Positions 32,273 to 53,961 of a DNA stretch of 64,000 nucleotides are shown one piece after another (positions within the stretch are counted from its first letter, which is position 1; every line of letters starts with the position of its first letter). The position numbers and the translations under genes were made by a program. Origin of the DNA: a virus. Location of the stretch: positions 35,166-99,165 of IMG/VR virus record IMGVR_UViG_3300032293_000933; one strand, given 5' to 3'. Below the pieces are notes generated by a model that searched no databases, was not told the DNA's origin, and saw only the letters and a list, made by a program, of their open reading frames with translations.

Positions 32273-32280
32273 GTTCTTAT

Positions 32281-32363: not shown

Positions 32364-32365
32364 CT

Positions 32366-32407: not shown

Positions 32408-32438
32408 TTAAACTAAATATAAAGAAACGGTGTAGAGA

Positions 32439-32726: not shown

Positions 32727-32727
32727 T

Positions 32728-32799: not shown

Positions 32800-32815
32800 T
32801 AGACTAAGAATAGAT

Positions 32816-34073: not shown

Positions 34074-34100
34074 TACCCTCTGTTTATGGTTTTTACTATG

Positions 34101-34108
34101 AATAAATA
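34101..34108 (+). promoter_or_regulatory. T4-type late promoter box before the large fiber
   Basis: AATAAATA in the context GAATAAATAAAT, 29 bases before the ATG at 34138. It probably drives the 5.8-kb fiber gene late. Confidence 0.6.
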
Positions 34109-34137
34109 AATCATAGTAGCCATCCTAGAGTAATAAA

Positions 34138-37100
34138 ATGGGTCTTAGTCGCTTAGATAATTTTCTGAAGAATAGTAGAGGCGATATTCTATACGTCGAT
34201 CCTTCCAGTATAGACTCTACAGATAGTATTGAAAACCAAGGTAACTCATTAGTTAGACCTTTTAAAACAATTCAAAGGGCACTGATTGAGGCAGCAAGAT
34301 TCTCATATCAAAAAGGATTTGATAATGATAGATTTAGTAGAACAACTATCATTGTTTATCCTGGCGAACATGTAATCGACAATAGACCAGGATGGATTCC
34401 TGTACATGACGCTCCTATTTCTGGTAATAATTGGTTAACTAGAAGTGGTGCATCTTCTAATGACCTCACAGAATTTACTTTAAATTCTGATTTTGACATT
34501 GATTCTCCAGAGAATGATCTTTATAAAATGAACTCCGTTTATGGTGGAGTTATCATTCCTCGTGGCACATCAATCGTTGGTATGGATCTTCGTAAAACAA
34601 AGATTCGTCCAAGGTTTGTTCCAAGTCCTCAAGACAATACAGTTGATTCAACTTGTTTATTTCGAGTAACTGGTACTTGTTATTTTTATCAGTTTACATT
34701 TTTTGATGCGGATCCAAACTCAAATGTATATAAAGATTATGGCACATCAAAGTTTGTTCCCAACTTCTCTCACCATAAACTAACTTGTTTTGAATATGCG
34801 GATGGTGTAAATCCTGTAAAATTTAATGATACTTATTTAAATTACAATACGACTAGAACCGACCTTGACATTTATTATGAAAAAATCGGTTTAGTATATG
34901 GTCCTTCTAGTGGAAGATCTATTTCACCTGATTATCCAAGTGCTGCAATTGATGTTCAATCAAAAATTGATGAATTCCGAATTGTTGGTTCTAAAGGTCA
35001 AAATATTGGAATTTCTAGTATCAGAGCAGGTGATGGTGTAACTTCCAGTAAGAAAATTACAGTAGATCTTGTTGAATCTGTTGATGGATTGGATGTAGAT
35101 ACTCCGATTAGAATTGAAGGTATTCCTAGTGGTGGATACAATGGTTCTTATGTTGTAAAAACTGTAGAATCTACAACTCGGGTTACTTATGAGGTTTCTA
35201 CAGCACCTGTAAATCCTCTTCCTGCTATTGTATCAGGTGCTCCAACTCTTAATATTGTAGTTGACAGTGTTACTTCTGCATCTCCATATATCTTCAATTG
35301 TTCTTTACGTTCCGTTTATGGAATGTGTGGACTTCATGCGGATGGTAGCAAAGCTGATGGATTTAAATCCATGGTGGTTGCTCAGTTCACTGGTATTGGA
35401 CTACAGAAAGACGATAATGCATTTGTAAAATATAATGCAGTATCTGGTGTTTATGAAGATTCCACTGCTGTTTCAAACCTTCATACCAATTCTTCTGCAG
35501 TATATAAACCAGCATACGAAAACTTCCATATTAAAGCATCAAATGATGCATTCCTTCAACTAGTTTCTGTGTTTGCTATTGGATATGCAAATCACTTTGT
35601 TGCAGAATCTGGTGGAGACCATTCGATTACAAACTCCAACTCAAACTTTGGTGCAAAGGCAATTGTTTGTAGAGGATTCAGAAATGACGCTTTCCCAAGA
35701 GATGATACTGGATATATTACCCATATTTTACCACCACAAAGAGTTGATAATAATGAAATAACTATTGAATTTGCTCCTATTGACGTTGAGAAAACAATTT
35801 CTGTAGGTAATACTTCTAGACTTTATCTTTATAATGAGACCAATAGAAATATACCACCAAAATCAGTATTAGAAGGATATCGAATTGGTGCGAAAAATCA
35901 GGACAAATTAAAAGTTGTTATTAATATTGGTAACATTGGTGTTACCAAAGAATCTGTAATTGTAATGCCAGAGACACAGGGAACTGGTAATTATGAGGTA
36001 TCTGCTACAAAATTATCTACTGTAGGTAGAACAGCAATTGGTATTAATAGTATTACCTCTAATATCTTTACAGCAACTCAACCTCACCAATTTATTAATG
36101 GTGAATCTGTACGTATTTTAAGTGATGATGGTGAACTTCCTGATGGTTTGAGGCACAATCAACTTTATTATGCAATTACTGCTGGAATTAATAGTGATCA
36201 GATTAAATTAGCACAAACATTTAATGACACTGTAAGTTTGTCTGCTATCACTGTTAATAGTAAAGGTGGTATTCTTCAGATTGAATCTAGAGTATCTGAT
36301 AAAAAGTCTGGTGACGTTGGGCACCCAATACAATATGATAGTGCTATTGGTCAATGGTTTATTACGGTAAGTTCTACTAATAACTCAATTTATAGTACGA
36401 TTGTTGGTCTTGGAACAGCATCCCTTGGTAGGGCAACTCCAAAAACATTTATTACTAGAACTCCTGATAATAGAGCTCTTGAAGATCGAATTTACAAAGT
36501 AAGGTATGTAATTCCAAGAGATTCAAGTGTTCTTGGTAGACCTCCAGAAGATGCATTTATTATGCAGGAGTCCAGCAATACAACTGGATTTACTAATGCA
36601 GAGGTTGCTAAGTTTAAAAGTATTGCGCCAGCTGTCCTATCTAATACTTCAGAATTAAGAAATCCTAGATTTATTTCGGGTGCTACCTGGGACGGAATTG
36701 TTGGATTAGCGACGTTTACGACAGATACACCACATGAACTGTCTGTTGGTTCTAAAGTTCAAGTTTTTAACATTGTATCAACAGCAAACACAAGTGGATT
36801 AGGAAATACTGGATTTAATGGCGTTTATACTGTTGTATCAAGTCCTACACGGAGAGAATTTACAGTTGGTATTACTACCAATCCAGGAACATTCTCTAAT
36901 AATATTAATCAGAGAACAACAAATCTGCCCAGATATGAGAGAAAAGAATTTAGTAATACGTTCTACATTTATAGAAAGGAAGCAGTCCAGGAATATGTTC
37001 CAAATGCAAAAGATGGAGTTTATCATTTAACTATTCTTGATTCATCATCTTCACCTCAAGTATCTCCATTCCAAAATCTTAGATTCTCTCAACCAGTTAA

Positions 37101-39966: not shown

Positions 39967-39994
39967 TAATATCTGATTATGATTGTACGTGGTT

Positions 39995-40837
39995 ATGAAT
40001 TTTACTATATTATCAAACCCACCATATCAAGATAATAATAAAGCAAAAAATAATAAACTTTGGTATAAGTTTATTGAATTGGACATCAATCTTCTTCAAA
40101 ATGGCGCAACCATGGCAAAGGTTACGCCATCATCTTTTATTGGAACAACTGGATTTGGCAAAAAGTTCTTTCAAAAATGTCAAACAATTTATAACCTAAT
40201 TCAAATTGATTATACTTCCGATAAGTATTTTACTGAAGGTGTGTCTATTTGTTCATGGATTTTAAAAAAAGAACCATATAAAGGAATTACAAAAGTTATA
40301 CATGAGACTGGAATCCATTATTTGGATTTGAGAGATGGACTCCCTTTGTTTGGAGAAGAAAAATTATTACATACTATTTTTAATAAAATTGCAAATTCAA
40401 ATCATCCAAGGATACCTCTTAAGATTGGACAGGACATTCCAAAAGATGAGTACTGTGATGATGGAAAGTACGAAGTTTACGCCTCAGGAAAAAATATAAA
40501 AAGAACTAATGTTCTTCCGACTACGGGAGACTTACTAAAATTTGTAGTGCCATATTCTTGTTCATATACTGACAGATTTATCACAAATGGATACATCGGT
40601 ATGTTAAACTCATGGTGCCCTATCAAAGATGAAGAGGGAGGTAAATTATTATCAACTATATTTGATATTCCTTTAATTAAGTTGTTTGTTGAAAACTATA
40701 AAACTACTGCTGGATTCGCTGCAGCAGTTAAAAATGCAGAAGTTCCTCTTATAAAGGATTTTAATGATGTGCATCAACAATTTGATTTTACATCTGAAGA
40801 ACTAGAGTATTTGAGAGATAAAAATGTCATCCAATAA
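39995..40837 (+). CDS. catalytic half of a split N6-adenine DNA methyltransferase
   Basis: A 280-residue protein beginning with the catalytic motif IV: MNFTILSNPPYQDNN places NPPY at residues 8-11. WYKFIELDINLLQNGATMAKVTPSSFIG and the later KFVVPYSCSYTDRFITNGYIG correspond to motifs V-VIII and a target-recognition region of type II adenine methylases. The S-adenosylmethionine-binding motif I is missing here and lies in the next gene. The ATG at 39995 is chosen; TTG 39983 is an alternative. Confidence 0.75.
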   Translation: MNFTILSNPPYQDNNKAKNNKLWYKFIELDINLLQNGATMAKVTPSSFIGTTGFGKKFFQKCQTIYNLIQIDYTSDKYFTEGVSICSWILKKEPYKGITKVIHETGIHYLDLRDGLPLFGEEKLLHTIFNKIANSNHPRIPLKIGQDIPKDEYCDDGKYEVYASGKNIKRTNVLPTTGDLLKFVVPYSCSYTDRFITNGYIGMLNSWCPIKDEEGGKLLSTIFDIPLIKLFVENYKTTAGFAAAVKNAEVPLIKDFNDVHQQFDFTSEELEYLRDKNVIQ

Positions 40838-41243: not shown

Positions 41244-41295
41244 CCACTCTCCCGATGATGGTTGGTAACTTTTGCTGTATAATATTTCTATCGTT

Positions 41296-42534
41296 ATGAC
41301 ACCCATGCAACTCCGTCCTCATCAATCCGAAGCACTTGACATCATGGACCGCATCCTTAAGGGGATGATTGTGGTTCCCACTGGCGGTGGTAAGTCCCTG
41401 ATTGCTATTATGGATGCTGTTCGTCAGTTTATGACTGGTGACAAAACTATTGTAGTCGTTGCTCCTAGGTTGATGCTCGCTCGTCAGTTGTCTGCTGAGT
41501 TTACTGAGCACATCACCAATGCATCCATTATGCATGTTCATTCTGGTGGCGATCTTCCTTACTTTACAACGACTAAACCAAATCAAATCTTTTCCTGGTG
41601 CTATCACACTAAAGGTAATAAGTTGATCTTTACTACTTATCAGTCTCTGCATCGCATTCAGGAAGCAAACATTGCTGTAGATACGATTTACTATGATGAA
41701 GCGCACAATTCAGTTAAAAAAAGTTATTTCTCTTCCGTCAAGTATTTCTCTTCTGTTGCTAACCGCAGTTATTTCTTCACTGCTACTCCTAAGTATTCTG
41801 CCACTGCTTCAAAACCTGGAATGAATGATGCTAGTGTCTACGGTGGCATTATTTACAATGTTCCTGCTCCGCGTCTTGTTAGTAATGGTTCCATTCTTCC
41901 TCCTAAGATTAACGCTATCAATGTTGGTAGCATTCGTTTGAAGGGCGAGGAAGCGGCAGAGAGGGACTGTATGACCCTTCTGGATACCCTATCCAATGAA
42001 GAGCACATGGAGAAGGTTCTAATCGCTGCTCCTAATACCAAAGTGATGATCCGTATGCTTGCTGAGACTGCCTTTATGGAGGAAGTTCAATCCATGGGAT
42101 ACGATCTCCTTTGGATTACCAGCAAGCATGGTGCATTCCTTAATGACCAGAAAATTACCCGTGAGCAGTTTTTTAATCTTGTACGTGAGTATGGTGCAGA
42201 TCCTGACAAAAAGTTTATTGTTCTGCACTATTCTATTCTGAGTGAAGGTATCTCTGTTCCTGGTCTTACTTCTTTGATTATGATGCGTCAAATGAATGTT
42301 ATTGAGATGTGCCAATCTGTTGGTCGTGTGATTCGTCTTCATCTTGATGATGTAAAGCGTATTCAACAAGGCACTCTTACTCCTGGTAATCTCCAGGAGT
42401 ACACCAAATCTTTTGGTTTTGTTCATGTTCCCGTTTACAACAACGTGGGCATTGCAACGGTCAAACGCCTTCAGAACGTTGTAGATACTGTGTTTGTTGA
42501 AGGTCAACCTGCTATTGCTACTATTAAACGATGA
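41296..42534 (+). CDS. SF2 DEAH-box helicase
   Basis: A 412-residue ResIII/DEAD-like helicase with Walker A VVPTGGGKSLIA, motif Ia APRLMLARQL, Walker B YYDEAHN, motif III FTATPKYS, SEGISVPGLTS and QSVGRVIR (motif VI). Only the helicase core is present; no nuclease domain is attached. The ATG at 41296 is preceded by a TATAAT (41278-41283) without a clear -35. The gene is more GC- and CGN-codon-rich than its neighbours. It could be a UvsW-like recombination or repair helicase or a partner of the upstream methylase. Confidence 0.85.
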   Translation: MTPMQLRPHQSEALDIMDRILKGMIVVPTGGGKSLIAIMDAVRQFMTGDKTIVVVAPRLMLARQLSAEFTEHITNASIMHVHSGGDLPYFTTTKPNQIFSWCYHTKGNKLIFTTYQSLHRIQEANIAVDTIYYDEAHNSVKKSYFSSVKYFSSVANRSYFFTATPKYSATASKPGMNDASVYGGIIYNVPAPRLVSNGSILPPKINAINVGSIRLKGEEAAERDCMTLLDTLSNEEHMEKVLIAAPNTKVMIRMLAETAFMEEVQSMGYDLLWITSKHGAFLNDQKITREQFFNLVREYGADPDKKFIVLHYSILSEGISVPGLTSLIMMRQMNVIEMCQSVGRVIRLHLDDVKRIQQGTLTPGNLQEYTKSFGFVHVPVYNNVGIATVKRLQNVVDTVFVEGQPAIATIKR

Positions 42535-43116: not shown

Positions 43117-43279
43117 ACTTAAGCATCAACGTCTTCAAGCATGGTTGCGTGAGCATCAATGTGATGATATTGAATATCTTGGTGAGAAGGAAGGTGAATA
43201 TTGGTATCGTATTGGACCTCACGAAATTACATCAGATCAATTTGAAGATATTGAATTTGTTGGAATGGTTGATGTTTAA
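43097..43279 (+). CDS. 60-residue protein, unknown
   Basis: MKISQSELKHQRLQAWLREH starts nine bases after a perfect AAGGAGG (43081-43087). The second half (EYWYRIGPHEITSDQFEDIE) is acidic and aromatic. It overlaps both neighbouring genes. Unrecognised. Confidence 0.6.
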   Translation: MKISQSELKHQRLQAWLREHQCDDIEYLGEKEGEYWYRIGPHEITSDQFEDIEFVGMVDV

Positions 43280-43757
43280 AGAGTTTTTTGTAGAAGATGA
43301 GGTAAGTGATTACTTCAATCTTCTACTTAATTTTGTTTCTAATTATCCAGAGACTTTTAAGGATAAAAAACAAAGTTCTTTAAGTGGAAATTGTTTTTAC
43401 ACGTTAAATCTTTTGGATAATATTAACTCAAAAATCTTTTATAACTATATTGATAAAGTTAAATTATTGTGTGAGGATATTTTAAATTTAAAATTAAAAT
43501 ATTTTTATATTCATATGATTGATTATCAAAATGGTGGTAAAATGAATGTGCATAAGCACAACCACAATGAAGATTATAGTTTTATACTTTACTTAAATTC
43601 TTGTAATGATGGTGAAACCATGATTTATATTGATGATAATCAATATAAGATTATTCCAGAAAAAAATAAAGTGTTACTATTTTCTTCTCACATACCTCAT
43701 TCTGCAGAATACTCTGAATCTAAAAGAGTTCTTGTTGGTGGGTTAAGAACCAAGTAG
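43272..43757 (+). CDS. 2OG-Fe(II) oxygenase-like protein
   Basis: A 161-residue protein of the prolyl-4-hydroxylase type. KMNVHKHNHNEDYSFILYLN (from about residue 89) gives the iron site, GETMIYI the middle strand, LLFSSHIPHSAEYSESKR the distal His and Arg. It opens the accessory island and is extremely AT-rich (43441-43500 has only 8 G+C of 60). Substrate unknown. Confidence 0.65.
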   Translation: MFKEFFVEDEVSDYFNLLLNFVSNYPETFKDKKQSSLSGNCFYTLNLLDNINSKIFYNYIDKVKLLCEDILNLKLKYFYIHMIDYQNGGKMNVHKHNHNEDYSFILYLNSCNDGETMIYIDDNQYKIIPEKNKVLLFSSHIPHSAEYSESKRVLVGGLRTK

Positions 43758-43763
43758 GAAATT

Positions 43764-43940
43764 ATGGAAAAACATCAAAAAAGGCGCGATGCATTTAATC
43801 TTTTTTATGAGAGCGTCTTAAAACCAGATTATGAGTTGCGTGAAATTGCCCATGAGCAACAGTGTTATTATGAGTTGATGGAATGGAGGAAAGAAATACT
43901 TACATACTTGGACCTAAAAAGAATAGAAGAATTTAACTGA
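43764..43940 (+). CDS. 58-residue helical protein, unknown
   Basis: MEKHQKRRDAFNLFYESVLK opens a helical, charged protein with no known motif. It stops one base before the radical SAM gene and may be translated with it. Confidence 0.5.
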   Translation: MEKHQKRRDAFNLFYESVLKPDYELREIAHEQQCYYELMEWRKEILTYLDLKRIEEFN

Positions 43941-43941
43941 T

Positions 43942-44760
43942 ATGTTAAAAGTACCTCACGAGATACAATTACACGTTACTCACTCTTGCAATTTAACTTG
44001 TGAGGGATGCACTCATTATATGAATCAAGGTCACTCTGGTTCTGTATCTCTTGAACAGGCATCAGAGTGGATGGAAAACTGGAGTAAAAGAATCATACCT
44101 CAAAGGTTCACATTGATGGGTGGAGAGCCTGCTTTACATCCAGATTTGACTGAATTTGTATATTTGGCAAGAGAAAAGTGGTCAAATTCATATTTGGATT
44201 TAATTTCTAATGGATTTTATCTGTATAAACATCCAAATCTTTGGGAAGCATTAAAAAAAACAAGAACAACTCTTGGTGTATCTGTTCATTCTGATGGTGA
44301 CCCAGAATATAGGCAGAAGTTTGAACCAGTTTATAATCTAATGAGAGAATGGATTGCAAAAGGAGCGCCAGTTGAAATGCGTCCATCAATTATTCATTGG
44401 ATTAGACAATATAAAGGGTTTGGTGATAAAATGGAACCATTTGAAGATGATAATCCAAAGTTAAGTTGGAAGTATTGTGTATCAAAGTTGTGTGTTCAAT
44501 TGCATGAAGGAAAACTTTGGAAGTGTCCCGCTCTTGCATATCTTCCAATGCAAGCAAATAAATATAATCTATCTGAAAAGTGGGAACCATATCTTAAATA
44601 TACACCATTAGAGCATACCTGTACGGATGAAGAATTAAAAGACTTTTTTACTCGTAAGGAAGAATCTTATTGCTCTATGTGTCCTGCCAAAGAAGAGTAT
44701 TTTATTCCTAAAAATCCACTCTTACCAGTAAGTTATTGGAAAAAGTTATATGACACTTGA
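43942..44760 (+). CDS. radical SAM protein, copy 1
   Basis: A 272-residue radical SAM enzyme. CNLTCEGC near residues 16-23 is the CxxxCxxC cluster motif and LMGGEPALHPD the GGE motif. The C-terminal part has further cysteines, KYCVSKLCVQLHEGKLWKC and SYCSMCPA, like the auxiliary cluster of SPASM or twitch proteins. A paralogue lies at 48073. Such enzymes do radical chemistry on peptides, sugars or small molecules. The stop overlaps the next start. Confidence 0.85.
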   Translation: MLKVPHEIQLHVTHSCNLTCEGCTHYMNQGHSGSVSLEQASEWMENWSKRIIPQRFTLMGGEPALHPDLTEFVYLAREKWSNSYLDLISNGFYLYKHPNLWEALKKTRTTLGVSVHSDGDPEYRQKFEPVYNLMREWIAKGAPVEMRPSIIHWIRQYKGFGDKMEPFEDDNPKLSWKYCVSKLCVQLHEGKLWKCPALAYLPMQANKYNLSEKWEPYLKYTPLEHTCTDEELKDFFTRKEESYCSMCPAKEEYFIPKNPLLPVSYWKKLYDT

Positions 44761-45403
44761 TATTGGTCCAGTCTATCCAGAAGATCCTAGAGATGTAGAG
44801 CACTTTGATTTTTGTGGCAATGAAATCTACAGGGCATATAATCTTCTAAGTAAATATGATATGAAAAATCTCTTAGAAGAGATTGATAATGAATTAGAAG
44901 TTTGTGAAGATAAATGGGATTTATCTGTTGAAGCAACTAATAGATTGTCTCAACGTAAGTTGTGGTATAAAAAAAGTTGGACAAACTTTTTTAAATTAGT
45001 TAAAAAACATCTTTATACTTATTCAGAAATCACTAATGACCCAAGAATAAAAGAGTATAAAGTCCAATCATATTGGGCAAAACGGATGAGGGGAACAACA
45101 GAGGAGAACTATGGGAATGAATTGTATATAAACTATGGTAATAGTCATAGTCATGATAATTTTGATCTTGGTATGATTTATTATCTTAAAAATCCATCTA
45201 GAATATATGGAACTCTAATTGAGAATAAAGATAGAGAAATCATCATTCCAGGAGATGAAAATTCTTTATTAATACATCATTCTCATGTTAATCATCAACC
45301 AGTTATGCCACCACCTATTGTGGCAAAAGAATACTATAGGTGTGTAATTGTGGTTGATTTTATGCATCCTTCAAAAGTAGATTACTATGAACGCAGAAGA
45401 TAG
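44750..45403 (+). CDS. putative 2OG-Fe(II) oxygenase
   Basis: A 217-residue protein overlapping the radical SAM gene by 11 bases. The C-terminal half has NSHSHDNFDLGMIYYLKN, then PGDENSLLIHHSHVNHQPV and YYRCVIVVDF, the H...D...H...R order of a double-stranded beta-helix oxygenase. The N-terminal half is helical. Assignment rests on this pattern only. Close coupling to the radical SAM gene suggests one pathway. Confidence 0.55.
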   Translation: MTLDIGPVYPEDPRDVEHFDFCGNEIYRAYNLLSKYDMKNLLEEIDNELEVCEDKWDLSVEATNRLSQRKLWYKKSWTNFFKLVKKHLYTYSEITNDPRIKEYKVQSYWAKRMRGTTEENYGNELYINYGNSHSHDNFDLGMIYYLKNPSRIYGTLIENKDREIIIPGDENSLLIHHSHVNHQPVMPPPIVAKEYYRCVIVVDFMHPSKVDYYERRR

Positions 45404-45620
45404 AATTAAATACGCAAGTATAACTCAAAAAATTAATAAAAAAAGAATATCAGACTTAACAGAAGATGAATATGATTGGTTAAAATATCATCCAAATTTA
45501 ATTTCTGAAATTAGAAAACATAAACAAAAGAATGATATTATGAATGCTACTGTCGGCAACAAAAATACGATTGAAGAAATTTTGTTTGATTTGGACTTGT
45601 CAGACCGAATGTATCGATGA
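45387..45620 (+). CDS. 77-residue protein, unknown
   Basis: MNAEDRIKYASITQKINKKR starts inside the previous gene (17-base overlap). Helical and lysine-rich N-terminus, acidic C-terminus (EEILFDLDLSDRM). The -35 of the next promoter lies in its last codons. No family recognised. Confidence 0.55.
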   Translation: MNAEDRIKYASITQKINKKRISDLTEDEYDWLKYHPNLISEIRKHKQKNDIMNATVGNKNTIEEILFDLDLSDRMYR

Positions 45621-45626
45621 TATAAT
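45597..45626 (+). promoter_or_regulatory. sigma70-type promoter of the RNA-repair genes
   Basis: TTGTCA (45597-45602), 18 bases, TATAAT (45621-45626), 24 bases before the ATG at 45651. It could transcribe 45651 through the RNA ligase and phosphatase. Confidence 0.65.
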
Positions 45627-45650
45627 TGATAATATCTACTATATTGAACA

Positions 45651-45845
45651 ATGCATTCTATCTTTGACATGATGCACGACGAACGTCGTTACGGGTGGGT
45701 TGTAGACAAAAGATATGATTGGATTAATATGCTTCATAAAATGGAAAAAAACAATCCTAGAAGATTTTCAGAATTTCAATATTCAAAAGAAAATATCTAT
45801 CATCATTTAGATAGAATACAACAAGAGCAAAATGTTTATGACTGA
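45651..45845 (+). CDS. 64-residue protein, unknown
   Basis: MHSIFDMMHDERRYGWVVDK opens a basic, aromatic-rich protein. It is the first gene after a sigma70-like promoter and lies two bases before the RNA ligase. It is not recognised. Confidence 0.55.
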   Translation: MHSIFDMMHDERRYGWVVDKRYDWINMLHKMEKNNPRRFSEFQYSKENIYHHLDRIQQEQNVYD

Positions 45846-45847
45846 GT

Positions 45848-46588
45848 ATGGATTATTCTTTTCCTGTAATCTACAATATTTTTCAAATACTTAAAGAACT
45901 AAAAAAAGAAGATCATAACATCATCAATCAAGATGAGTTTTGCATAGTAAATTGTAGTAGTAGCGAAACTCCTTTATTGAGAGAAATAAGAGGACTTGCA
46001 TTTAATCTTGAAGGTAATATAATTGCTAGACCATACCATCAAGCATTTACGTTAGACCAAAGTTTTGAAACTAATTTTGATAAGATTATAAAAAAACTTA
46101 AAAATCTTAATGTTTTTTTGGAAAAATTAGATGGTGTAATGGTATATCCTGTTCCGACCCCTTACGGATACAGACTAACTACAAAAAATGGAATTAATTC
46201 TACATCATTCAATGCTGAAGTTTTTATAGCAAATAAAACTTATTATAATGAGTTTATAAAAATATGCTTAGCAAAAAACTGTACGCCCATTTTTGAGTGG
46301 TGTTCTCCAAACGATAAAATTGTGGTAGAATATCCAGAAGAAAACTTAGTATTAACTGGATTGCGTAATATTAAAACAGGAGTGTATTGCAAATATATGT
46401 TCCTTCGCAAACTTGCAGTTAATTTAAAAATTCCTGTGGTAAATAAAATGTGTGTCAACTACTACGAAATTTCTCAATATATTGATGAAATTAAAAATCA
46501 ACAAGATGCCGAAGGTGTGGTAGTTAGGTTTGATAGTGGGCACATGTTTTATATTAAATCGGAAGCATACTTGCAGAAAAAAAGTTAA
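45848..46588 (+). CDS. rnlA: Rnl1-type RNA ligase (nucleotidyltransferase domain)
   Basis: A 246-residue protein of the T4 RNA ligase 1 family. All nucleotidyltransferase motifs can be read: EKLDG (Lys93 is the AMP-attaching lysine), LREIRGLAFN upstream, FEWCSPNDKIV (III), LVLTGLRN (IIIa), AEGVVVRF (IV) and YIKSEAYLQKK (V). It ends just after motif V, so the C-terminal domain of T4 Rnl1 (374 residues), which recognises tRNA, is missing. T4 Rnl1 seals tRNAs broken by host anticodon nucleases. The end-healing partner lies two genes on. Confidence 0.88.
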   Translation: MDYSFPVIYNIFQILKELKKEDHNIINQDEFCIVNCSSSETPLLREIRGLAFNLEGNIIARPYHQAFTLDQSFETNFDKIIKKLKNLNVFLEKLDGVMVYPVPTPYGYRLTTKNGINSTSFNAEVFIANKTYYNEFIKICLAKNCTPIFEWCSPNDKIVVEYPEENLVLTGLRNIKTGVYCKYMFLRKLAVNLKIPVVNKMCVNYYEISQYIDEIKNQQDAEGVVVRFDSGHMFYIKSEAYLQKKS

Positions 46589-46593
46589 CTTCT

Positions 46594-47070
46594 ATGGAAC
46601 ACTTAAAAATTAAACCATACCAAACAATTTTAGTTTTAAATTCTAGTTACGAACCAATTAATTTTACTAATTGGAGACGAGCTGTAATTTTAGTTCTAAA
46701 AGAAAAAGTTCAGGTTATATCTGAAAGAGTTATTCGATTACTAAATTATATTAAAGTTCCAATTAATTATGCTGCAAAATGTAAACCATCTAGAGCAATG
46801 GTTTATAAAAGAGATCTTAATACTTGTCAATATTGTGGTTCTACTACTAGACTGACCATAGACCATGTTCTCCCTCGTAGTAAAGGTGGAGATGACTCTT
46901 GGGAAAATTTAGTGGTTGCATGTTCTTCTTGTAATACTAAAAAAGGAAATAAATTATTAGAACATACTAATATGAGATTGATTCGTCAACCAAGAGCACC
47001 TTGGAATAAAGTTGCGTTTGATCTTGCTAATTGTAATGTTCCTGAGTGGAGAGAATATTCATATGAATAA
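46594..47070 (+). CDS. HNH endonuclease
   Basis: A 158-residue HNH nuclease. CQYCGSTTRLTIDHVLPRSK and NLVVACSSCNTKKGN give the two zinc CxxC pairs and the catalytic DH...N. The N-terminal part (ILVLNSSYEPINFTNWRRAV) is that of the common cyanobacterial HNH family, so it may come from the host. It sits between RNA ligase and phosphatase, with short spacing on both sides. A free-standing homing nuclease or a nuclease working on DNA ends are both possible. Confidence 0.9.
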   Translation: MEHLKIKPYQTILVLNSSYEPINFTNWRRAVILVLKEKVQVISERVIRLLNYIKVPINYAAKCKPSRAMVYKRDLNTCQYCGSTTRLTIDHVLPRSKGGDDSWENLVVACSSCNTKKGNKLLEHTNMRLIRQPRAPWNKVAFDLANCNVPEWREYSYE

Positions 47071-47524
47071 ACTTCGTAATCCTTGTGTAATTTTTGATTT
47101 AGATGGCACATTATGCAATGTAAAACATAGACAGCAATTTATTGCAACTCACCCAAGAAATTGGGATGCTTGGAATGCTGGTATTCTACAAGACAGTATA
47201 AATGTTCCTGTTGGAGTTGTTTTTAAGTCTTTGAAAAATACATATTCCAAATTAAAAATGGTCATTCTTACTGGAAGAACGGATAATTATAAGGATGAAA
47301 CTGAATTGTGGTTAAATAAAAATGCAATTGAATATGATGAATTGTATATGAGAAAACAGAATGACCGTAGAGATGATTCTGTAGTAAAGGGTGAGTTTGT
47401 GGATTTTTTGGAAAAGAAGTATAATATATTGTGTGTTTTTGAAGACCGTAAAAGAGTTGTTGATATGTGGGTGAAAAGGGGTATATGGGTATTTGATTGT
47501 GGTCAAACAAAAGGAGATTTTTAA
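47063..47524 (+). CDS. PNK-type 3'-phosphatase (HAD family)
   Basis: A 153-residue HAD phosphatase resembling the C-terminal domain of T4 polynucleotide kinase (PseT). CVIFDLDGTLCNVKHRQ is the catalytic DxDGT, VILTGRTDN motif II, MRKQNDRRDDSVVKGEF and FEDRKRVVDMWVKRGI the Pnkp-specific end. The kinase domain is absent. It would remove 3'-phosphate or cyclic phosphate from cut RNA before ligation. It overlaps the HNH gene by eight bases. Confidence 0.82.
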   Translation: MNKLRNPCVIFDLDGTLCNVKHRQQFIATHPRNWDAWNAGILQDSINVPVGVVFKSLKNTYSKLKMVILTGRTDNYKDETELWLNKNAIEYDELYMRKQNDRRDDSVVKGEFVDFLEKKYNILCVFEDRKRVVDMWVKRGIWVFDCGQTKGDF

Positions 47525-48076
47525 ATGTTTTTTCGTAAATTAAACAAGCAGTTTTTTATAAACAACTATAATAAGACTGGTAGAAAAATAGAATATGGAA
47601 TGGATACTCCATATGGATTTGCTGGTATTAAATATTCATATATTAAATCAGAGAATGAAACTGATTTGCTTCAAGTAATACCAGAATCTTATAGAGATAA
47701 TTGTACTCTGTCATTAATGGAGCTGAATTATAAAATTCCTCCACATACTGATAGTAATATTGAGGCTATTGTAAACTTTTATATTAAGACTGATAGATGT
47801 GTAACACAGTTCTATTATCCTCCAGGAGAAACACCTACAACTAAAGTCGCAAATCAAACAGACGGAGCAATCTTTCATGAGGGTTATTTGAGAAAGTCTG
47901 TCAGGTTTATGGCACATCCTGGAGATGCTTATTTGCTTGATGTATCTAAACCACACTCGGTATTTCCAATGGAAGCAGGTCTTCCTGATCGTAAAGCAAT
48001 TTGTTTGCAAATTCTTTATAAGTCTTTTGATGAGGCAGTGGAGATGTTGAAAGAAACTGGATATATTGATGAATGA
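47525..48076 (+). CDS. 2OG-Fe(II) oxygenase-like protein
   Basis: A 183-residue protein starting right after the phosphatase stop. KIPPHTDSNIEAIVNFYI gives HxD (near residue 75), KPHSVFPMEAGLPDRKAICLQ gives the distal His and Arg. GDAYLLDV is the usual strand before the second His. It overlaps the second radical SAM gene by four bases, so the two are probably cotranslated. Confidence 0.7.
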   Translation: MFFRKLNKQFFINNYNKTGRKIEYGMDTPYGFAGIKYSYIKSENETDLLQVIPESYRDNCTLSLMELNYKIPPHTDSNIEAIVNFYIKTDRCVTQFYYPPGETPTTKVANQTDGAIFHEGYLRKSVRFMAHPGDAYLLDVSKPHSVFPMEAGLPDRKAICLQILYKSFDEAVEMLKETGYIDE

Positions 48077-48924
48077 AACAATTTGATACTAAACAAATAG
48101 AACTGCATGTAACTCATACTTGCAATTTTACTTGTGAAGGATGCTCTCATTATTCAAATCACGGTCATTCTGGGACATTAACCCTAGAAACTATAAAAGA
48201 TTGGCTATATATTTGGGGTCAAAGAATAAGACCAAAAACTTTTGTTATTCTTGGTGGTGAACCAACTTTAAATAAAGAACTTACTGATATTGTATATTTG
48301 GTGAGGATGATTTATCCTGATCCATGTACACAAATTGACCTTGTATCTAATGCTAGTTTTTTACATAATCATCCAAAACTCCCAAAAGCACTGATAGCAA
48401 CTCAGACAAATTTAGCAATATCTATACACAGCACCACTCATAAAAACTATGTAAAAAAGTTTAAACGTGGATATACTCTTGCTAAGCAATGGAGACATGA
48501 TCTTGGAGTGCATGTAGAATTTTGGGATTATACTAATGAATATTGGACACCACAATATACTGGGTTTGGAAATAATATGATGCCTTATGAGGATAATAAT
48601 CCTAGGCAAAGTTGGGAAAAGTGTTTATCTAAACATGCTATCCAACTACATGAAAATAAATTGTGGAAGTGTCCAGCATTGGCTTATTTACCAATGCAAT
48701 CTAAAAAATATAATTTAAGCGATAAATGGAATGTATATCTTAAATATCAACCATTAGAACCAGATTGTAGTGATGATGAGCTGGAAAAGTTTTTAAACAA
48801 AGAAGATGAGTCATATTGTTCAATGTGTCCTGCAAATAAGGATAAAAATTTTGTAAAAGAAGATCCAACACTACCAGTAAGTTATTGGGAGAAAAAATAT
48901 GATAACATGGGGGATATCATCTAA
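48073..48924 (+). CDS. radical SAM protein, copy 2
   Basis: A 283-residue paralogue of the protein at 43942. CNFTCEGC is the cluster motif and LGGEPTLNKE the GGE motif; the auxiliary cysteines SYCSMCPA and KLWKCPALAYLPMQ are nearly identical to copy 1. The middle part (residues 100-180) diverges, which would fit a different substrate. It overlaps the carbamoyltransferase gene by 26 bases, a strong hint that the two act together. Confidence 0.85.
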   Translation: MKQFDTKQIELHVTHTCNFTCEGCSHYSNHGHSGTLTLETIKDWLYIWGQRIRPKTFVILGGEPTLNKELTDIVYLVRMIYPDPCTQIDLVSNASFLHNHPKLPKALIATQTNLAISIHSTTHKNYVKKFKRGYTLAKQWRHDLGVHVEFWDYTNEYWTPQYTGFGNNMMPYEDNNPRQSWEKCLSKHAIQLHENKLWKCPALAYLPMQSKKYNLSDKWNVYLKYQPLEPDCSDDELEKFLNKEDESYCSMCPANKDKNFVKEDPTLPVSYWEKKYDNMGDII

Positions 48925-50323
48925 TAGTCATAATGCTGCATTGTCAGTATTTGTAAAAGACGAATTGGTATTCGCCAGTGAGAGTGAACGTTTTAGTAAA
49001 ATTAAAAATGATCCATATATTTCAGATTCTTTATTAAACTATGCTTTAAGATATGGAAAACCAGAATTAATTTGTTGGTATGAAAATCCTTTAAAAAAGA
49101 GGATGAGACAAATTTATGCAGGTCAAGGTCCATTTGTGAATAATTTTGAAAGATATTATGAGTGCAAGCACAAATTTTTTAACCATCACTATACCCATGC
49201 ATGTGGTGGTTATTTTACTAGTAAATTTAAACATGCTGTTATTTTAGTCATAGATGCTATTGGAGAATTTCAAACACTTACAATTTGGGAAGCAAGTGGC
49301 AATAATTTAAAGTTAAAGTATGAATTAAAGTATCCAAATAGTGTGGGATTACTGTATTCTGCAATGACTCAGCGGTGTGGTTTAAAACCGAATGAAGAAG
49401 AATATATTTTGATGGCTTTATCTGCATTGGGAGATAAACATAAATTAAAAGATGCTATTTTTGATGATTTCATAACAGAAGATTTTAAATGTAAGTTAAA
49501 TTTACATCAGGGATGTAAAGATTGGAGACCAGAAGAATCAAAAGAAGATATTGCTGCGGCAACTCAAGAAGTATATGAGATTCTTTTTAATAATGCACTG
49601 AGACTTGCTAAAAAATTGGTGCCAACTAATAACCTTGTATTGATGGGGGGTTGTGCTTTAAATTGCGTAGCAAATAAACATGCTTATAATCATTTTAAAA
49701 ATGTGTGGATAATGCCAGCACCTGGAGACAGTGGATCTGCGATTGGTGCTGTATTGGCGCACAAGAAAATTCATATCAAATTCACACCCTATCTTGGATA
49801 TTATCTGCAACATAAACATACAAACACTGAGATTGTAAAATATTTGTATGAGCATAAAGTGTGTGGACTTGCGAGAGGTAGATCGGAGTTTGGTCCAAGA
49901 GCATTGGGTGCAAGGAGTTTAATAGCAGACCCATCTGATCCAGAAATAAAAGATAGAGTTAATAAAATCAAAAATAGAGAATCTTATAGACCATTCTCTC
50001 CAGTTGTTCCTATAGAGTTTGCCAATACTTATTTTGATATGCATCAGGATTTGATAGAAAGTCCATTTATGCAACACACCGTTAGATGTAAATATCCAGA
50101 AAAGTTCCCTGGAATTGTTCATGTTGATGGAACAAGTAGATTGCAAACTGTTAAAAAAAGTGATGCTCCTAGACTTTATAATTTACTATATCAATGGAAA
50201 GCAAAAACTGGTCATCCCATGCTTTTAAATACTAGTTTAAATATTAAAGGGCAACCGATGTTAAATGATGAGAGGGATTGTGATAAGTGGTCTAGACGCT
50301 ATAATATTCAAATATTCTCATGA
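48899..50323 (+). CDS. NodU/CmcH-family O-carbamoyltransferase, second copy
   Basis: A 474-residue enzyme, shorter than the one at 26. It has TWGISSNSHNAALSVF, FNHHYTHACGG (metal His pair), VLMGGCALNC, EFGPRALGARSLIADP and LLNTSLNIKGQPML. The first carbamoyltransferase has the N-terminus FSGHDASATVI and differs throughout, so these are not recent duplicates. It overlaps the second radical SAM gene and the first SGNH gene. The acceptor is unknown. Confidence 0.9.
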   Translation: MITWGISSNSHNAALSVFVKDELVFASESERFSKIKNDPYISDSLLNYALRYGKPELICWYENPLKKRMRQIYAGQGPFVNNFERYYECKHKFFNHHYTHACGGYFTSKFKHAVILVIDAIGEFQTLTIWEASGNNLKLKYELKYPNSVGLLYSAMTQRCGLKPNEEEYILMALSALGDKHKLKDAIFDDFITEDFKCKLNLHQGCKDWRPEESKEDIAAATQEVYEILFNNALRLAKKLVPTNNLVLMGGCALNCVANKHAYNHFKNVWIMPAPGDSGSAIGAVLAHKKIHIKFTPYLGYYLQHKHTNTEIVKYLYEHKVCGLARGRSEFGPRALGARSLIADPSDPEIKDRVNKIKNRESYRPFSPVVPIEFANTYFDMHQDLIESPFMQHTVRCKYPEKFPGIVHVDGTSRLQTVKKSDAPRLYNLLYQWKAKTGHPMLLNTSLNIKGQPMLNDERDCDKWSRRYNIQIFS

Positions 50324-51108
50324 CATTTTTAAAATTATCTGAAAGATTTGAACAAAAATTACTTCTTCCAAATCAAGAACTAATCACTGGTAATCATGAA
50401 TGGTTTGACCAAGATACTAAGGAACTTTATAAAACAAATCTAAAAGAACAACCTGATGATTGGTATTATCGGGTTAATAAAGTTGAATATAATTTAAATA
50501 GTGCTGGATATAGAACAAAAGATTTCAATCAAATAAATTGGTCAAAATCAATCGTGATTTTTGGATGTTCTCATGTATTTGGTGTTGGAACTTCAGAGGA
50601 AGATACTATATCTGGACAATTAGAAAGTATGACAAATTGCTCAGTGATTAATTTAGGTTCTACTGGGTCATCCTCTTTATTCACTTTACATAATTCTATA
50701 CTGTTAAATGAGTCATATCCAACTCCAAAGGCAGTTGTTAGTATTTGGACTTCTCCATATAGACTTCCATATTATACTGAAGATCGAGTGATGCATTGTG
50801 GAAATTGGAATTATGATAGATTTAAAATTGGTTATTATTGGAATATTGATAAGAATAATGCAATCACACATTTAAAGTTAAATGCGATGACTTTCCAAGA
50901 ATTTTGGAAAAATAAGACTAATTATTTTGATTTAAGTTTATTTTATGATACTGCTAAAATATTAAATTGTGAATATGTAAATCAAATAGATGCTGCTCGT
51001 GATTTAGTAAAACAAAAATCAGGGTCTTATGTTGCCCATCAAGGAAAATTAACAAATAAAATTATAGCGGGAAGAATAATACAAGGATTAGGATTGCAAG
51101 TTGCTTGA
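50320..51108 (+). CDS. SGNH/GDSL-like protein, copy 1
   Basis: A 262-residue protein with IVIFGCSHVFGVGTSEEDT as block I, in which GCS replaces the usual GDS, VINLGSTGSS as block II-III and YVAHQGKLTN near the end with a candidate catalytic His. SGNH enzymes are esterases or acyltransferases that often trim or add acetyl groups on polysaccharides. It overlaps the carbamoyltransferase stop by four bases. A paralogue follows at 52132. Confidence 0.65.
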   Translation: MTFLKLSERFEQKLLLPNQELITGNHEWFDQDTKELYKTNLKEQPDDWYYRVNKVEYNLNSAGYRTKDFNQINWSKSIVIFGCSHVFGVGTSEEDTISGQLESMTNCSVINLGSTGSSSLFTLHNSILLNESYPTPKAVVSIWTSPYRLPYYTEDRVMHCGNWNYDRFKIGYYWNIDKNNAITHLKLNAMTFQEFWKNKTNYFDLSLFYDTAKILNCEYVNQIDAARDLVKQKSGSYVAHQGKLTNKIIAGRIIQGLGLQVA

Positions 51109-51144
51109 TAATGTGTTATCATTACACCAGATGCTATAGAGGAC

Positions 51145-51294
51145 ATGGCAATCCGTACATTTTCTGACACAAATTCAAATGACTGGAGTTGGGAAGAGAC
51201 ACCAGAGACTATTGAAGCATTAAAGCAACTTCATAATACAGTAAAACAAGTAAATGAAAATAAAACTCTAAAACCAAAACCTGTGAAAAAATGA
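51145..51294 (+). CDS. 49-residue small protein
   Basis: MAIRTFSDTNSNDWSWEETP opens a short, hydrophilic protein with a helical middle and a basic end (KTLKPKPVKK). A GAGG lies about eight bases upstream. Its stop overlaps the next start (ATGA). Unrecognised. Confidence 0.55.
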   Translation: MAIRTFSDTNSNDWSWEETPETIEALKQLHNTVKQVNENKTLKPKPVKK

Positions 51295-51503
51295 CAGAAG
51301 ATAAAAAGTTAATTGACGGATGTTTTTACGTAGATCAAAAAAAGTATGGACTTTGGTATTCCACAGACGAAGAAGGTAATGGACTTATCACCTCTCTCAC
51401 TGAGCAGTCGTGTATCCAAGCAACCCGTTTTTATCTTAAAGGACGGCAGGAAGGTTGGACTGAGACCCGAACTTATGAAGGTGAAGTAGGTGGAAAACTC
51501 TAA
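51291..51503 (+). CDS. 70-residue conserved protein
   Basis: MTEDKKLIDGCFYVDQKKYG, then LWYSTDEEGNGLITS and SCIQATRFYLKGRQEGW. It is compact with mixed alpha and beta prediction and resembles a short cyanophage protein I recall. No function. Overlaps both neighbours. Confidence 0.6.
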   Translation: MTEDKKLIDGCFYVDQKKYGLWYSTDEEGNGLITSLTEQSCIQATRFYLKGRQEGWTETRTYEGEVGGKL

Positions 51504-51657
51504 AGAATATCCATATCATGTGTTAGATCCAACAACACCTTGGTATGAGTGGTTATGTTATTGTGAAATTTGTCACCAATTAAATGTTATTGGACAACCA
51601 TCTTTAGGTAGATTTGCTGCATATCGACGTTATTTAAAATCGGTAGGTGTATTGTGA
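51490..51657 (+). CDS. 55-residue protein with CxC-x2-C motif
   Basis: A GTG-started frame overlapping the previous gene by 14 bases. WLCYCEICHQLNVIGQP could bind a metal ion. It ends in TGTGA with the next GTG start. No family recognised. Confidence 0.45.
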   Translation: MENSKEYPYHVLDPTTPWYEWLCYCEICHQLNVIGQPSLGRFAAYRRYLKSVGVL

Positions 51658-51962
51658 ACATTAAAAACTTTATTAACTGGTTCTTTGTATCCGACAAAGA
51701 AAAGAAAGTAATCGTAGATTGTGATGATGGTTTTATTGGAAGTAAATTTACTTTACTTGATTTAATTCAATCTTTAGAGACACGGGTGGAATACCTTGAA
51801 CAAAAATATAAAGGAGCACTTGAGGATATTAAGAGGTTAGAAATAGAAAATATAGAGACTACAAACTCATTGTATGAAATGGAGAATCGTCTTCAAGCAC
51901 AAATTGATGCTCACTGTCCACCAATATATAATATGAAGCAATATACATTAGGAGATAAGTAA
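51654..51962 (+). CDS. coiled-coil protein, unknown
   Basis: A GTG-started 102-residue protein. The N-terminus is aromatic (NIKNFINWFFVSDKEKK); residues 40-90 form a coiled coil (LETRVEYLEQKYKGALEDIK). It overlaps both neighbours. Function unknown. Confidence 0.55.
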   Translation: MNIKNFINWFFVSDKEKKVIVDCDDGFIGSKFTLLDLIQSLETRVEYLEQKYKGALEDIKRLEIENIETTNSLYEMENRLQAQIDAHCPPIYNMKQYTLGDK

Positions 51963-52135
51963 TGTACGAATTGGATGATTTTGAAAAAGCGTTAGCACAT
52001 TTTGGAACAAGAGTTGATATTATTTGTGCTCTTGAAATGGGTGATAAAATTGACGCTCAAACAGCATATAAAGAAATTAAAACAGAATTGAAAGAACTTA
52101 AAAAAGCAAAGAAGCAATATCTTAAAGATCAGTGA
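51962..52135 (+). CDS. 57-residue conserved cyanophage protein
   Basis: MYELDDFEKALAHFGTRVDI followed by AQTAYKEIKTELKELKKAKK. I recall close relatives in many cyanomyoviruses, without a function. It is helical, with a lysine-rich end. It overlaps the second SGNH gene by four bases. Confidence 0.65.
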   Translation: MYELDDFEKALAHFGTRVDIICALEMGDKIDAQTAYKEIKTELKELKKAKKQYLKDQ

Positions 52136-52917
52136 AGGTCAATCCAAATATAATACGTTCAATCAATAATCAAGAGTTTATTCCAGTACCAAATTCAACA
52201 GTTCAAAATTTTGAACAATCCATAAAAAATAGTGATAAATTTGATATATGTGGTAGTTGGGATTTTTTTGGGTCCGATGATTATGATAAGTATCAGTTAA
52301 ATTTAAAAATTCAATCTCCCGACTGGTACTATCGAAAAAATAAAGTAAAATATACTTTAAATTCTCATGGATATAGAACTAAAGAGTTTAATGATATCAA
52401 TTGGTCAAATTCAATAGTTATTTTTGGTTGTTCGTATATTTTTGGAACTGGTATAGATGATTCTCATACAATACCTGCATTTTTGGAAGAACTTTATGAA
52501 ATACCTGTAATTAATTTGGGAATGGGAGGTTCATCAATACAGTTTGCTTTACATAATTCATTAATGCTTTATAAAAAATATGGAACTCCAAAATGTGTGA
52601 TTTATGGTATGCCAGGTATTACAAGATATTTGATGTATCAAAGAAATCGCGTAGAGTTAAAACTTGATTGTGAAAATAATAGTAAATTTGTAGATCATTT
52701 GGTTCCATTTAATCTTATAAATGTTGAGTTAATTAGGAATTTGTGGGAAGGAAAGACTCAATATTATGAATTCTCTTTTTTTCCAACAACATCAAAATTA
52801 TTAGGTTGTGATTTGCATAAACCAATACCAGATGATTATGCTAGAGATATGAGTCATCCTGGCATAAAATCTAATAAATTAACCGCACAAAACATTTACA
52901 AATTTTTGAAGTTATGA
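52132..52917 (+). CDS. SGNH/GDSL-like protein, copy 2
   Basis: A GTG-started 261-residue paralogue of the 50320 protein. SPDWYYRKNKVKYTLNSHGY, IVIFGCSYIFGTGIDDSHT, VINLGMGGSS and DYARDMSHPGIKSNKLTA align with copy 1; DMSHPG gives a D-x2-H pair typical of the SGNH active-site end. GCS instead of GDS occurs in both copies, so it is a stable feature of this subfamily. Confidence 0.65.
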   Translation: MKVNPNIIRSINNQEFIPVPNSTVQNFEQSIKNSDKFDICGSWDFFGSDDYDKYQLNLKIQSPDWYYRKNKVKYTLNSHGYRTKEFNDINWSNSIVIFGCSYIFGTGIDDSHTIPAFLEELYEIPVINLGMGGSSIQFALHNSLMLYKKYGTPKCVIYGMPGITRYLMYQRNRVELKLDCENNSKFVDHLVPFNLINVELIRNLWEGKTQYYEFSFFPTTSKLLGCDLHKPIPDDYARDMSHPGIKSNKLTAQNIYKFLKL

Positions 52918-53397: not shown

Positions 53398-53961
53398 ATG
53401 GCAGCAACATTAACCGCTACTGGTTTAACTTTTGATGATGGAACTTCATTAAATTCAAAGTATGGAGTTTTGGCACAAGGAACAGTATCGGTATTCTTCC
53501 AAGCGGCAGCACCTACTGGATGGACAAAATCTACTACTCATAATGATAAAGCACTAAGAGTCGTGTCTGGAACTGGTGGTGACTTTGGATTTGGTGGAGT
53601 ATCTGGTGCTGGTGGACTGTCTTTTAGTACAGTATTTCCAAGTAGCACTTCTCCAGTGAGTGTTAGTTTTAGTGCAAATGTTCCTGTTACGGGCACTGTT
53701 GGAAATACAACACTAACAACTTCACAAATACCAAATCATACTCACAATTCTTTAACTGGTGGAAGTGGAAGTGCTTCAAGTGGAGGATCTAATTTCTTGG
53801 TAAGTGGTTCAAATAATACTGGAGGTGTTGTGTCTCCTGGAGGCACTGGTGGATCACATAATCACCCGTTTAGTGGTAATATAAATTTTACTGCAACTGG
53901 TAGTGGTTCTGTTGATTTAAGACTACAATATATTGACGTTATTCTCTGCTCTTTTGATTGA
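53398..53961 (+). CDS. fiber-tip / tail-collar-like protein, copy 1
   Basis: A 187-residue protein. TVSVFFQAAAPTGWTKSTTH, ALRVVSGTGG, IPNHTHNSLTGG, GGSHNHPFSG and LQYIDVILC form the T4 gp12-type collar/tip pattern, in which HxH motifs on three chains bind metal ions. The glycine-rich middle would vary with the receptor. Probably a trimeric receptor-binding tip. Confidence 0.75.
   Translation: MAATLTATGLTFDDGTSLNSKYGVLAQGTVSVFFQAAAPTGWTKSTTHNDKALRVVSGTGGDFGFGGVSGAGGLSFSTVFPSSTSPVSVSFSANVPVTGTVGNTTLTTSQIPNHTHNSLTGGSGSASSGGSNFLVSGSNNTGGVVSPGGTGGSHNHPFSGNINFTATGSGSVDLRLQYIDVILCSFD

Follow-up and report, generated by a model that had tools for sequence, protein, structure and literature searches.

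Gene clusters for lipopolysaccharide (LPS), carbamoyltransferases, a tryptophan halogenase (PrnA) and numerous 2-oxoglutarate (2OG) oxygenases were reported in cyanophages in 2010 (PMC3037559), and 24 2OG oxygenase genes were reported in one phage in 2022 (PMC9602691). In crocagin synthesis, CgnD cleaves the leader peptide, and a dioxygenase and a carbamoyltransferase act there too (PMC10070186). The radical S-adenosylmethionine (SAM) enzyme BtrN oxidises 2-deoxy-scyllo-inosamine and has an auxiliary cluster held by four cysteines (PMC9012708). Here, we analyse a block of genes that brings such functions together in a stretch of 64,000 bases (the window), which covers bases 35166-99165 of the 99,165-base virus record IMGVR_UViG_3300032293_000933 (G000 below). 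Between a helicase-like gene and a tail-fibre-like gene (COL1), the block encodes two radical SAM enzymes (RS1 and RS2), an O-carbamoyltransferase (CBT), two proteins of predicted SGNH fold (SGNH1 and SGNH2), a 2OG oxygenase (OX1) and two oxygenase-like proteins (OX2 and OX3; Table 1). The virus is a T4-like cyanophage, because psbA, psbD, talC and gnd genes lie in the rest of the record and T4-like structural and replication genes in the window, all read by eye.

Like the LPS clusters of P-SSM2, S-SSM7 and S-SM2, the block belongs to a T4-like cyanophage and holds the same accessory enzyme classes (PMC3037559); the term "radical SAM" is absent from the main text of that report. As in the crocagin cluster (CgnC, CgnD and CgnI), a dioxygenase, an SGNH-like hydrolase and a carbamoyltransferase stand together, but crocagin is the product of a peptide pathway with a precursor gene, and we recognised none in the island by eye. 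Radical SAM genes are already known in phages, since there are PHROGs families so named; their reading as SpeY-like was not met in the literature searched. We put at about one in two the probability that the block is a modular phage-encoded pathway that tailors a sugar or cyclitol displayed on the virion or the host surface. Within this reading, the reactions, the sugar or cyclitol substrate and the display site are the parts that we infer. Its strongest support, which is indirect, comes from the likeness to SpeY and from the aminocyclitol-type neighbours found in sister phages.

The predicted model of RS2 (mean predicted local distance difference test score, pLDDT, 78.5; predicted template modelling score, pTM, 0.80) is closest to SpeY, an enzyme of the spectinomycin pathway, with Z 20.0 over 240 aligned residues at 3.3 A. 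The next folds are SuiB (Z 14.5), the anaerobic sulfatase maturase (13.7), BtrN (13.6) and viperins (about 13). With the joint profile of the radical SAM genes (A2), SpeY (7wzv) is matched at E 1e-10; the match spans positions 5-267 and aligns the three core and the four auxiliary cysteines. SpeY, whose name and class are taken from the titles of the fold list, is a twitch-type radical SAM dehydrogenase, and the RS2 model fits it best. RS2 has in common with SpeY and BtrN the CxxxCxxC core, the four-cysteine auxiliary site and, in the predicted model, the overall fold. Unlike SpeY, to which it is 18% identical, it is phage-encoded, occurs in duplicate and sits beside carbamoyltransferase and SGNH genes. 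The core cysteines 17, 21 and 24 are kept in 84 of 85 homologs (one gap), and the auxiliary cysteines 184, 200, 249 and 252 in all 85; here and below, such counts refer to distinct homologs other than the reference, intact in that they have at least 80% coverage and are free of stops and unread bases. In the tree, RS1 and RS2 form separate clades (support 100/98 each), and both copies have therefore long been kept. RS2 matches two of 50,697 phage records.

Homologs in sister phages lie among sugar- and aminocyclitol-type genes. Eight loci found through the radical SAM profile (L097-L104) carry DegT aminotransferase and glycosyltransferase-like genes in seven cases, and in seven the radical SAM gene is immediately followed by an amidinotransferase; L099 starts past the place of DegT and L102 ends before that of the amidinotransferase. 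The DegT match (Pfam, 2.1e-15) covers two short stretches. Amidinotransferases were sought with phmmer against PDB chains because PF02274 missed the clear amidinotransferase of L097, and their best match is the inosamine-phosphate amidinotransferase 1bwd (E 7.2e-63 in L097, 2.7e-95 in L093 and 1.2e-60 in isolate S-SCSM2R). This isolate has glycosyltransferases, a short aminotransferase (annotated as AHBA synthase), a radical SAM gene, a glycosyltransferase, a 2OG oxygenase and an "inosamine amidinotransferase"; its record annotates the radical SAM copy as a maturase. The sister-phage cassette pairs an amidinotransferase of streptomycin type with an aminotransferase and a SpeY-like radical SAM enzyme; unlike in the streptomycin-type set, the phage DegT is short (196 residues). 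The earlier note had seen a resemblance to antibiotic tailoring, and the nearest fold together with these neighbours gives that comparison substance. One candidate amidinotransferase, in the marine virus AG-345-D19 (L006:396-1688), was dropped, as it has no PDB match and a weak BLAST match to the others.

In the proposed pathway, RS1 and RS2 would most likely act as SpeY and BtrN do and turn an alcohol on the sugar or cyclitol into a ketone, and OX1, and by motif OX2 and OX3, would hydroxylate. CBT would cap a hydroxyl with a carbamoyl, and an acyl group would be added or removed by the SGNH enzyme, whose gene accompanies the radical SAM genes most steadily. The product might be displayed on the virion, at the tail fibre, or on the envelope of the infected host.

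The active sites of these enzymes are intact in nearly all unbroken members. Both Carbam_trans domains of CBT are above cut-off, which bears out the carbamoyltransferase of the earlier note, and H96, H100, D119, D277, R334, K358 and R364 are kept in 40 of 40 homologs. We take H96, H100, D119 and D277 (HxxxH plus Asp) to be the putative metal site, by analogy with TobZ. CBT has both domains and these putative metal-site residues in common with TobZ, NodU and GdmN, but is shorter than TobZ (474 against 576 residues) and its gene overlaps a radical SAM gene; it matches 144 of the 50,697 phage records. In AG-345-D19 a radical SAM gene overlaps a carbamoyltransferase split into separate C and N genes in swapped order, and on another contig of this virus two SGNH genes, read by eye, stand beside a carbamoyltransferase. 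Stand-alone C domains of about 200 residues likewise precede an N half in G001 and G019, and short N-domain open reading frames (ORFs) also occur in G001, G003, G011 and G019.

The predicted model of SGNH1 (pLDDT 84.6) is an SGNH fold with Ser, Asp and His; its best match is CgnD (Z 13.5), followed by GDSL esterases, TesA and carbohydrate esterases at Z 10-12 (Foldseek, VIA). S84, N111, D228 and H240 are kept in 80 of 80 homologs, and with the alignment of SGNH2 the proposed SGNH pair holds. SGNH1 has no Pfam match and none among the 50,697 phage records, and SGNH2 has none in PHROGs or NCBIfam. Of the three 2OG oxygenases that had been claimed, OX1 is confirmed by PF13640 (29.7 bits, cut-off 27), with H94, H96, H98 and H143 in 29 of 29 homologs. 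OX2 and OX3 as proven 2OG oxygenases are unsupported by profile or profile-profile matches, and 2OG families match none of eight members in either alignment. Their candidate residues are mostly conserved: H133, H135, H182 and R197 in 38 of 38 homologs of OX2, and H74 (29/30), D76 (27/30), H144 (28/30) and R156 (29/30) in OX3, where L041 reads HTN and PY instead of HTD and PH. Among the phage records, OX3 matches two Roseobacter phages and OX2 one weakly.

The block is inherited together in one cyanophage clade. We scanned a viral collection with RS2, RS1, A2 and the profiles of SGNH (A3), COL1 (A5) and the helicase (A6), each of the four profile scans giving its best 80 matches, from a larger number in the case of A5 and A6; the viral loci are numbered between L007 and L327. 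The 73 loci with both flanks reduce to 21 intervals distinct at 95% nucleotide identity. All 21 carry OX1, OX2, RS2 and SGNH1, the presence of RS2 and SGNH1 being partly fixed by the choice of seeds; CBT is found in 20, OX3 and the HNH gene in 18 each, RS1 in 15 and SGNH2 in eight. Since gene order is kept in these 21 distinct relatives, the island recurs more than expected by chance. Genes of G001 in locus L007 are 96-100% identical to those of the island. Relatives carry extra oxygenases, up to three in tandem: PF13759 is matched between OX1 and RS1 in six of six scanned, and PF13640, at E up to 0.1, between OX3 and RS2 in six of eight (best 9.9e-5).

Scans seeded outside the radical SAM genes show that the block is also absent together from the sister lineages sampled. 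Among the best 80 helicase matches, 31 loci have at least 6 kb downstream, and five of these have a radical SAM gene, along with OX2 (five), CBT (four), SGNH (four) and OX3 (two); in the other 26, OX2, CBT, SGNH and OX3 are likewise missing. From the tail-fibre side, again among the matches listed (best 80), 34 of 69 newly numbered loci have at least 5.5 kb upstream. RS is present in 23, which also carry SGNH (23), CBT (22), OX2 (19) and OX3 (19); the place of OX2 is not reached in L198, L209 and L214, where the 10-kb flank stops short, nor in L199, which meets a contig end. Ten of the 11 loci lacking RS in the flank also lack SGNH, CBT, OX2 and OX3. The other, L205, has CBT and SGNH, and radical SAM genes lie further upstream on its contig (L088). 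COL1 identity is at least 60% in all 23 RS-bearing loci and at most 56% in the ten empty ones, so the block-bearing loci are one clade. The earlier note asked whether the genes are gained and lost together, and named scattered genes or catalytic residues mutated in most members as outcomes against it; in the loci sampled both checks mostly favour it, although RS1, CBT and SGNH2 vary separately. L205 also has about six P-loop genes resembling sulfotransferases by eye (L205:434-5635) directly upstream of the carbamoyltransferase, and two in-frame stops are reported across its carbamoyltransferase match. As for a bacterial origin, a scan of one genome collection gave four loci: L048 and L049 are distant bacterial homologs, the latter beside glycosyltransferase-like genes (by eye), and L050 is a partial match (29%). 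The fourth, L047, a contig labelled as a Rhodobacteraceae metagenome-assembled genome, carries the greater part of the cyanophage block, contains many bases that were left unread and is probably a misbinned phage contig.

Radical SAM and SGNH genes are also coupled outside this clade. The SGNH seed found 33 loci there, and 26 of them contain a radical SAM pattern. Of the 24 distinct SGNH genes that the loci hold, 22 have a neighbour upstream; in 13 cases this neighbour is a same-strand radical SAM gene, against 5.0 expected from the share of radical SAM genes among ORFs. Eleven of the 13 pairs overlap by 1-74 bases, and the other two are 1 and 123 bases apart. These enzymes belong to another subfamily, 57-96% identical among themselves and 22-29% identical to the one called RSb in L227; one of the 13 touches RS2 at E <1e-3, over 63 residues. 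As they form one family, they count as one further lineage and not as thirteen events. The genes were found by regular expression, and in each of 15 records checked (chosen ones, 12 with the pattern and three without) Pfam gave the same answer as to whether such genes are present. Eleven of these 15 hold 8-13 matches to PF04055 at E <0.001 (7-13 above cut-off), one has three and three have none; a 57.6-kb record has 13 and a 40.8-kb record 11. Such multi-radical-SAM records include L137, L155, L163 and L145, several beside SGNH genes, and one gene, L155:6249-7805, resembles by eye a radical SAM enzyme of the B12-binding kind.

Could the site simply be a hot spot flanked by helicase and tail-fibre genes, where enzymes that are each useful by themselves accumulate with no joint pathway? 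RNA ligase, phosphatase, HNH and (by eye) transaldolase-like genes do come and go there. In isolate S-SCSM1 the slot between the two flanking genes is filled by three 2OG oxygenases plus two further genes, and its genome holds 24 2OG oxygenase genes according to its authors (PMC9602691). Yet OX1, OX2, RS2 and SGNH1 occur together in every interval, allowing for the seeds, and the inserts do not; RS1 and RS2, two well supported clades, are kept side by side; and the adjacency of radical SAM and SGNH genes recurs with another radical SAM subfamily. A hot spot explains the inserts and fails to explain the constant core, and we regard it as rather unlikely.

Other sugar-related genes lie elsewhere in the record. 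Locus L004 (bases 18001-35600 of G000) has ADP-heptose-type genes resembling a kinase (TIGR02198, E 1.2e-42), an adenylyltransferase (TIGR02199, 1.5e-29) and an epimerase (TIGR02197, 5.7e-67), all below the curated cut-offs. The set spans L004:10724-15570 together with cupin, 2OG and carbamoyltransferase N-half genes. The stand-alone N half of a NodU-type carbamoyltransferase (L004:11863-12939, 358 residues) is followed by a phosphatase-like gene and no C domain. Beside the set there is a gene of the tryptophan-halogenase family (PF04820, 5.1e-93), with a full carbamoyltransferase just upstream. In all, G000 has four genes with Carbam_trans_N and three with Carbam_trans_C. Related enzymes had been proposed across the rest of the window. 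The second carbamoyltransferase (26-1645) holds by PF02543, above cut-off, with NodU of NCBIfam at 1.3e-35 below its own, and so does the sulfotransferase-like gene (3439-4173; PF03567, 23.9 bits, cut-off 22). By contrast, the supposed glycosyltransferase-like gene (30340-31080) matches no family and the "carbohydrate-cluster fusion" could not be identified.

The motif xTAAATA, which we take to be a late promoter, lies 20-42 bp before 11 of the 65 listed plus-strand starts, where 2.0 are expected (none of 2000 random sets is as high). Genes so preceded include COL1 (35 and 27 bp upstream) and the 1942-residue gene at 34138. TATAAATA is absent from the window (1-64000; 9.1 expected) and CTAAATA is depleted in it (8 against 18.7). 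To judge from these counts, xTAAATA resembles a late-promoter motif that the phage uses at few sites and otherwise avoids.

Several results weigh against a sugar-tailoring pathway. None of the glycosyltransferase families PF00535, PF01075 and PF01755 is found in the 99-kb record; among six records, PF01755 occurs in two (G001 and G015) and the other two families in none. PF02274 finds no amidinotransferase in G000, unlike in the streptomycin-type set, and this is a weak test, since the same family missed the gene of L097; it gives a weak match elsewhere in G021. No xTAAATA precedes the island genes, which gives no support for a virion role; this neither proves nor excludes late read-through into the island. 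OX2 and OX3 match no profile family. A few copies are broken: L012 has an OX3 shortened to 139 residues and a CBT of 404 residues, the remainder of its C domain lying in a different frame, and the CBT of G019 has two in-frame stops; such decay or sequence error hits single lineages. The counts above are not independent, as the block-bearing loci form one clade. Within the 21 intervals RS1 is missing from six, CBT from one and SGNH2 from 13, and the full set is therefore dispensable. RS1 is missing in L020, L021, L060, L061, L069 and L080, and CBT in one group of the clade (L071, L073, L074, L076-L078 and L082-L085).

Further points on the same side speak for protein maturation, in which the radical SAM enzymes and oxygenases would act on a protein of the virion, probably one of the tail-fibre-like proteins encoded next to the block, and the SGNH enzyme would trim or acylate it, as with CgnC, CgnD and CgnI of crocagin. 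The block adjoins tail-fibre-like genes, and RSb lies upstream of the tail-fibre gene in seven of the 11 tail-fibre-seeded loci lacking RS. The twitch and SPASM folds include peptide-modifying enzymes, and SuiB, the sulfatase maturase and SkfB are among the folds next to SpeY. CgnD is the best structural match of SGNH1, and the crocagin cluster has the same three enzyme types (PMC10070186). However, the peptide enzymes fall 5.5 Z units short of SpeY. RS1 and RS2 are short and start with the core domain, and a profile search finds no SPASM match in G000, which together leave little room for a peptide-binding domain. No precursor-like peptide was recognised by eye, and the homologs of sister phages sit among sugar and aminocyclitol-type genes. 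We consider protein maturation unlikely but a serious alternative, to which the tail-fibre adjacency and the CgnD match lend real support.

The enzymes might instead modify nucleic acids or nucleotides, by carbamoylating 5-hydroxymethylcytosine or by making a viperin-like nucleotide. A phage-type carbamoyltransferase that makes 5-carbamoyloxymethylcytosine is known (PMC8670742), and RS1 and RS2 have weak viperin matches (48.2 and 36.4 bits in NCBIfam, cut-off 180; pVip of PADLOC as well). But these matches cover the shared core only, the viperin folds score Z about 13 against 20 for SpeY, and the auxiliary cysteines are universal among the intact homologs. The thymidylate-synthase family (PF00303) is found in none of 15 records, all possibly fragments, and the window has a ThyX-like gene (by eye). 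We thus rejected both a viperin-like identity, for its scores below the curated cut-off and its fold, and DNA hypermodification by carbamoylation as the leading explanation, for the lack of a thymidylate-synthase-family gene in these records. Any role of this kind seems very improbable.

One might speculate more widely. There may be a phage-specific, hitherto undescribed class of biosynthetic islands built on a radical SAM-SGNH core. With oxygenases and an assortment of transferases (carbamoyl-, amidino-, amino- and sulfo-), such islands would produce novel modified sugars or cyclitols for the virion or host surface, including guanidino sugars in some lineages. This generalisation is tentative. 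Equally tentatively, the cyanophage block would be a small member of the class and the phage fragments with 8-13 radical SAM matches its extreme. The coupling of radical SAM and SGNH genes is the new part, in a literature search that was not aimed at it; nor were the fragments met in print, in a search not aimed at them either.

The layout of the island is given in Table 1. Our gene calls agree with the island coordinates of the earlier note, OX1 starting at 43272, and the overlaps of 4-26 bases that it described are real: four bases at OX3/RS2 and at CBT/SGNH1, 11 at RS1/OX2, 14 at HNH/phosphatase (with the phosphatase ATG at 47057), 17 at OX2/small ORF and 26 at RS2/CBT. A group-transfer and oxidation island, as it had been called, is there, but not purely so, since three genes overlooked there, for an RNA ligase, an HNH nuclease and a PNKP-type phosphatase, belong to it too. 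The ligase and the phosphatase domain form an RNA-repair pair inserted in the islands of five of the 21 relatives, each gene being found in five; between the two, L069 and L088 carry a further, separate gene that by eye resembles a kinase. In many relatives SGNH1 is divided from the tail-fibre-like gene by one that looks like a transaldolase by eye (e.g. L040:18204-18878); the talC-like gene of our record sits far upstream (L003:4719-5396). Elsewhere in the window, 39983-40837 weakly matches an Eco57I methylase (E 1.7e-4, under the cut-off) and 60104-60919 has a strong match to an orphan DNA methyltransferase model (PADLOC, 5.1e-88).

Table 1. Genes of the island and its flanks, in window positions.
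Feature	Position	Strand	Basis and remarks
Helicase-like gene, left flank	41272..42534	+	By eye; seed other than radical SAM (alignment A6); in 21 intervals by construction
OX1, 2OG-Fe(II) oxygenase	43272..43757	+	PF13640, E 1.3e-6; start read from sequence
RS1, twitch-type radical SAM enzyme, 272 residues	43942..44760	+	PF04055, E 5.7e-12
OX2, oxygenase-like by motif only	44750..45403	+	No family match
Conserved small ORF after OX2, 77 residues	45387..45620	+	Matched by tblastn at the corresponding position in many relatives
RNA ligase, insert and not core	45848..46588	+	PF09511, E 2.4e-21
HNH nuclease	46594..47070	+	PF01844, E 6.5e-17
PNKP-type phosphatase, insert and not core	47057..47524	+	PF25109, E 5.6e-27
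OX3, oxygenase-like by motif only	47525..48076	+	No family match
RS2, SpeY-like twitch radical SAM enzyme, 283 residues	48073..48924	+	PF04055, E 2.5e-11
CBT, NodU/TobZ-type O-carbamoyltransferase, 474 residues	48899..50323	+	PF02543, 4.5e-37; PF16861, 1.9e-49
SGNH1, SGNH-fold enzyme	50320..51108	+	Predicted model; no family match
SGNH2, paralog of SGNH1	52132..52917	+	40% identity to SGNH1, same Ser/Asp/His
COL1, tail-fibre-like gene, right flank	53398..53961	+	51% to "tail fiber protein" of isolate S-SCSM1; no Pfam match

Intact active sites, a relative of known chemistry and a steady pair of radical SAM and SGNH genes provide a testable hypothesis for the products of this block. If phages do make carbamoylated or guanidinylated sugars, this would bear on adsorption, superinfection exclusion and the recognition between phages and their hosts, and these genomes would be a new source of sugar-modifying radical enzymes.

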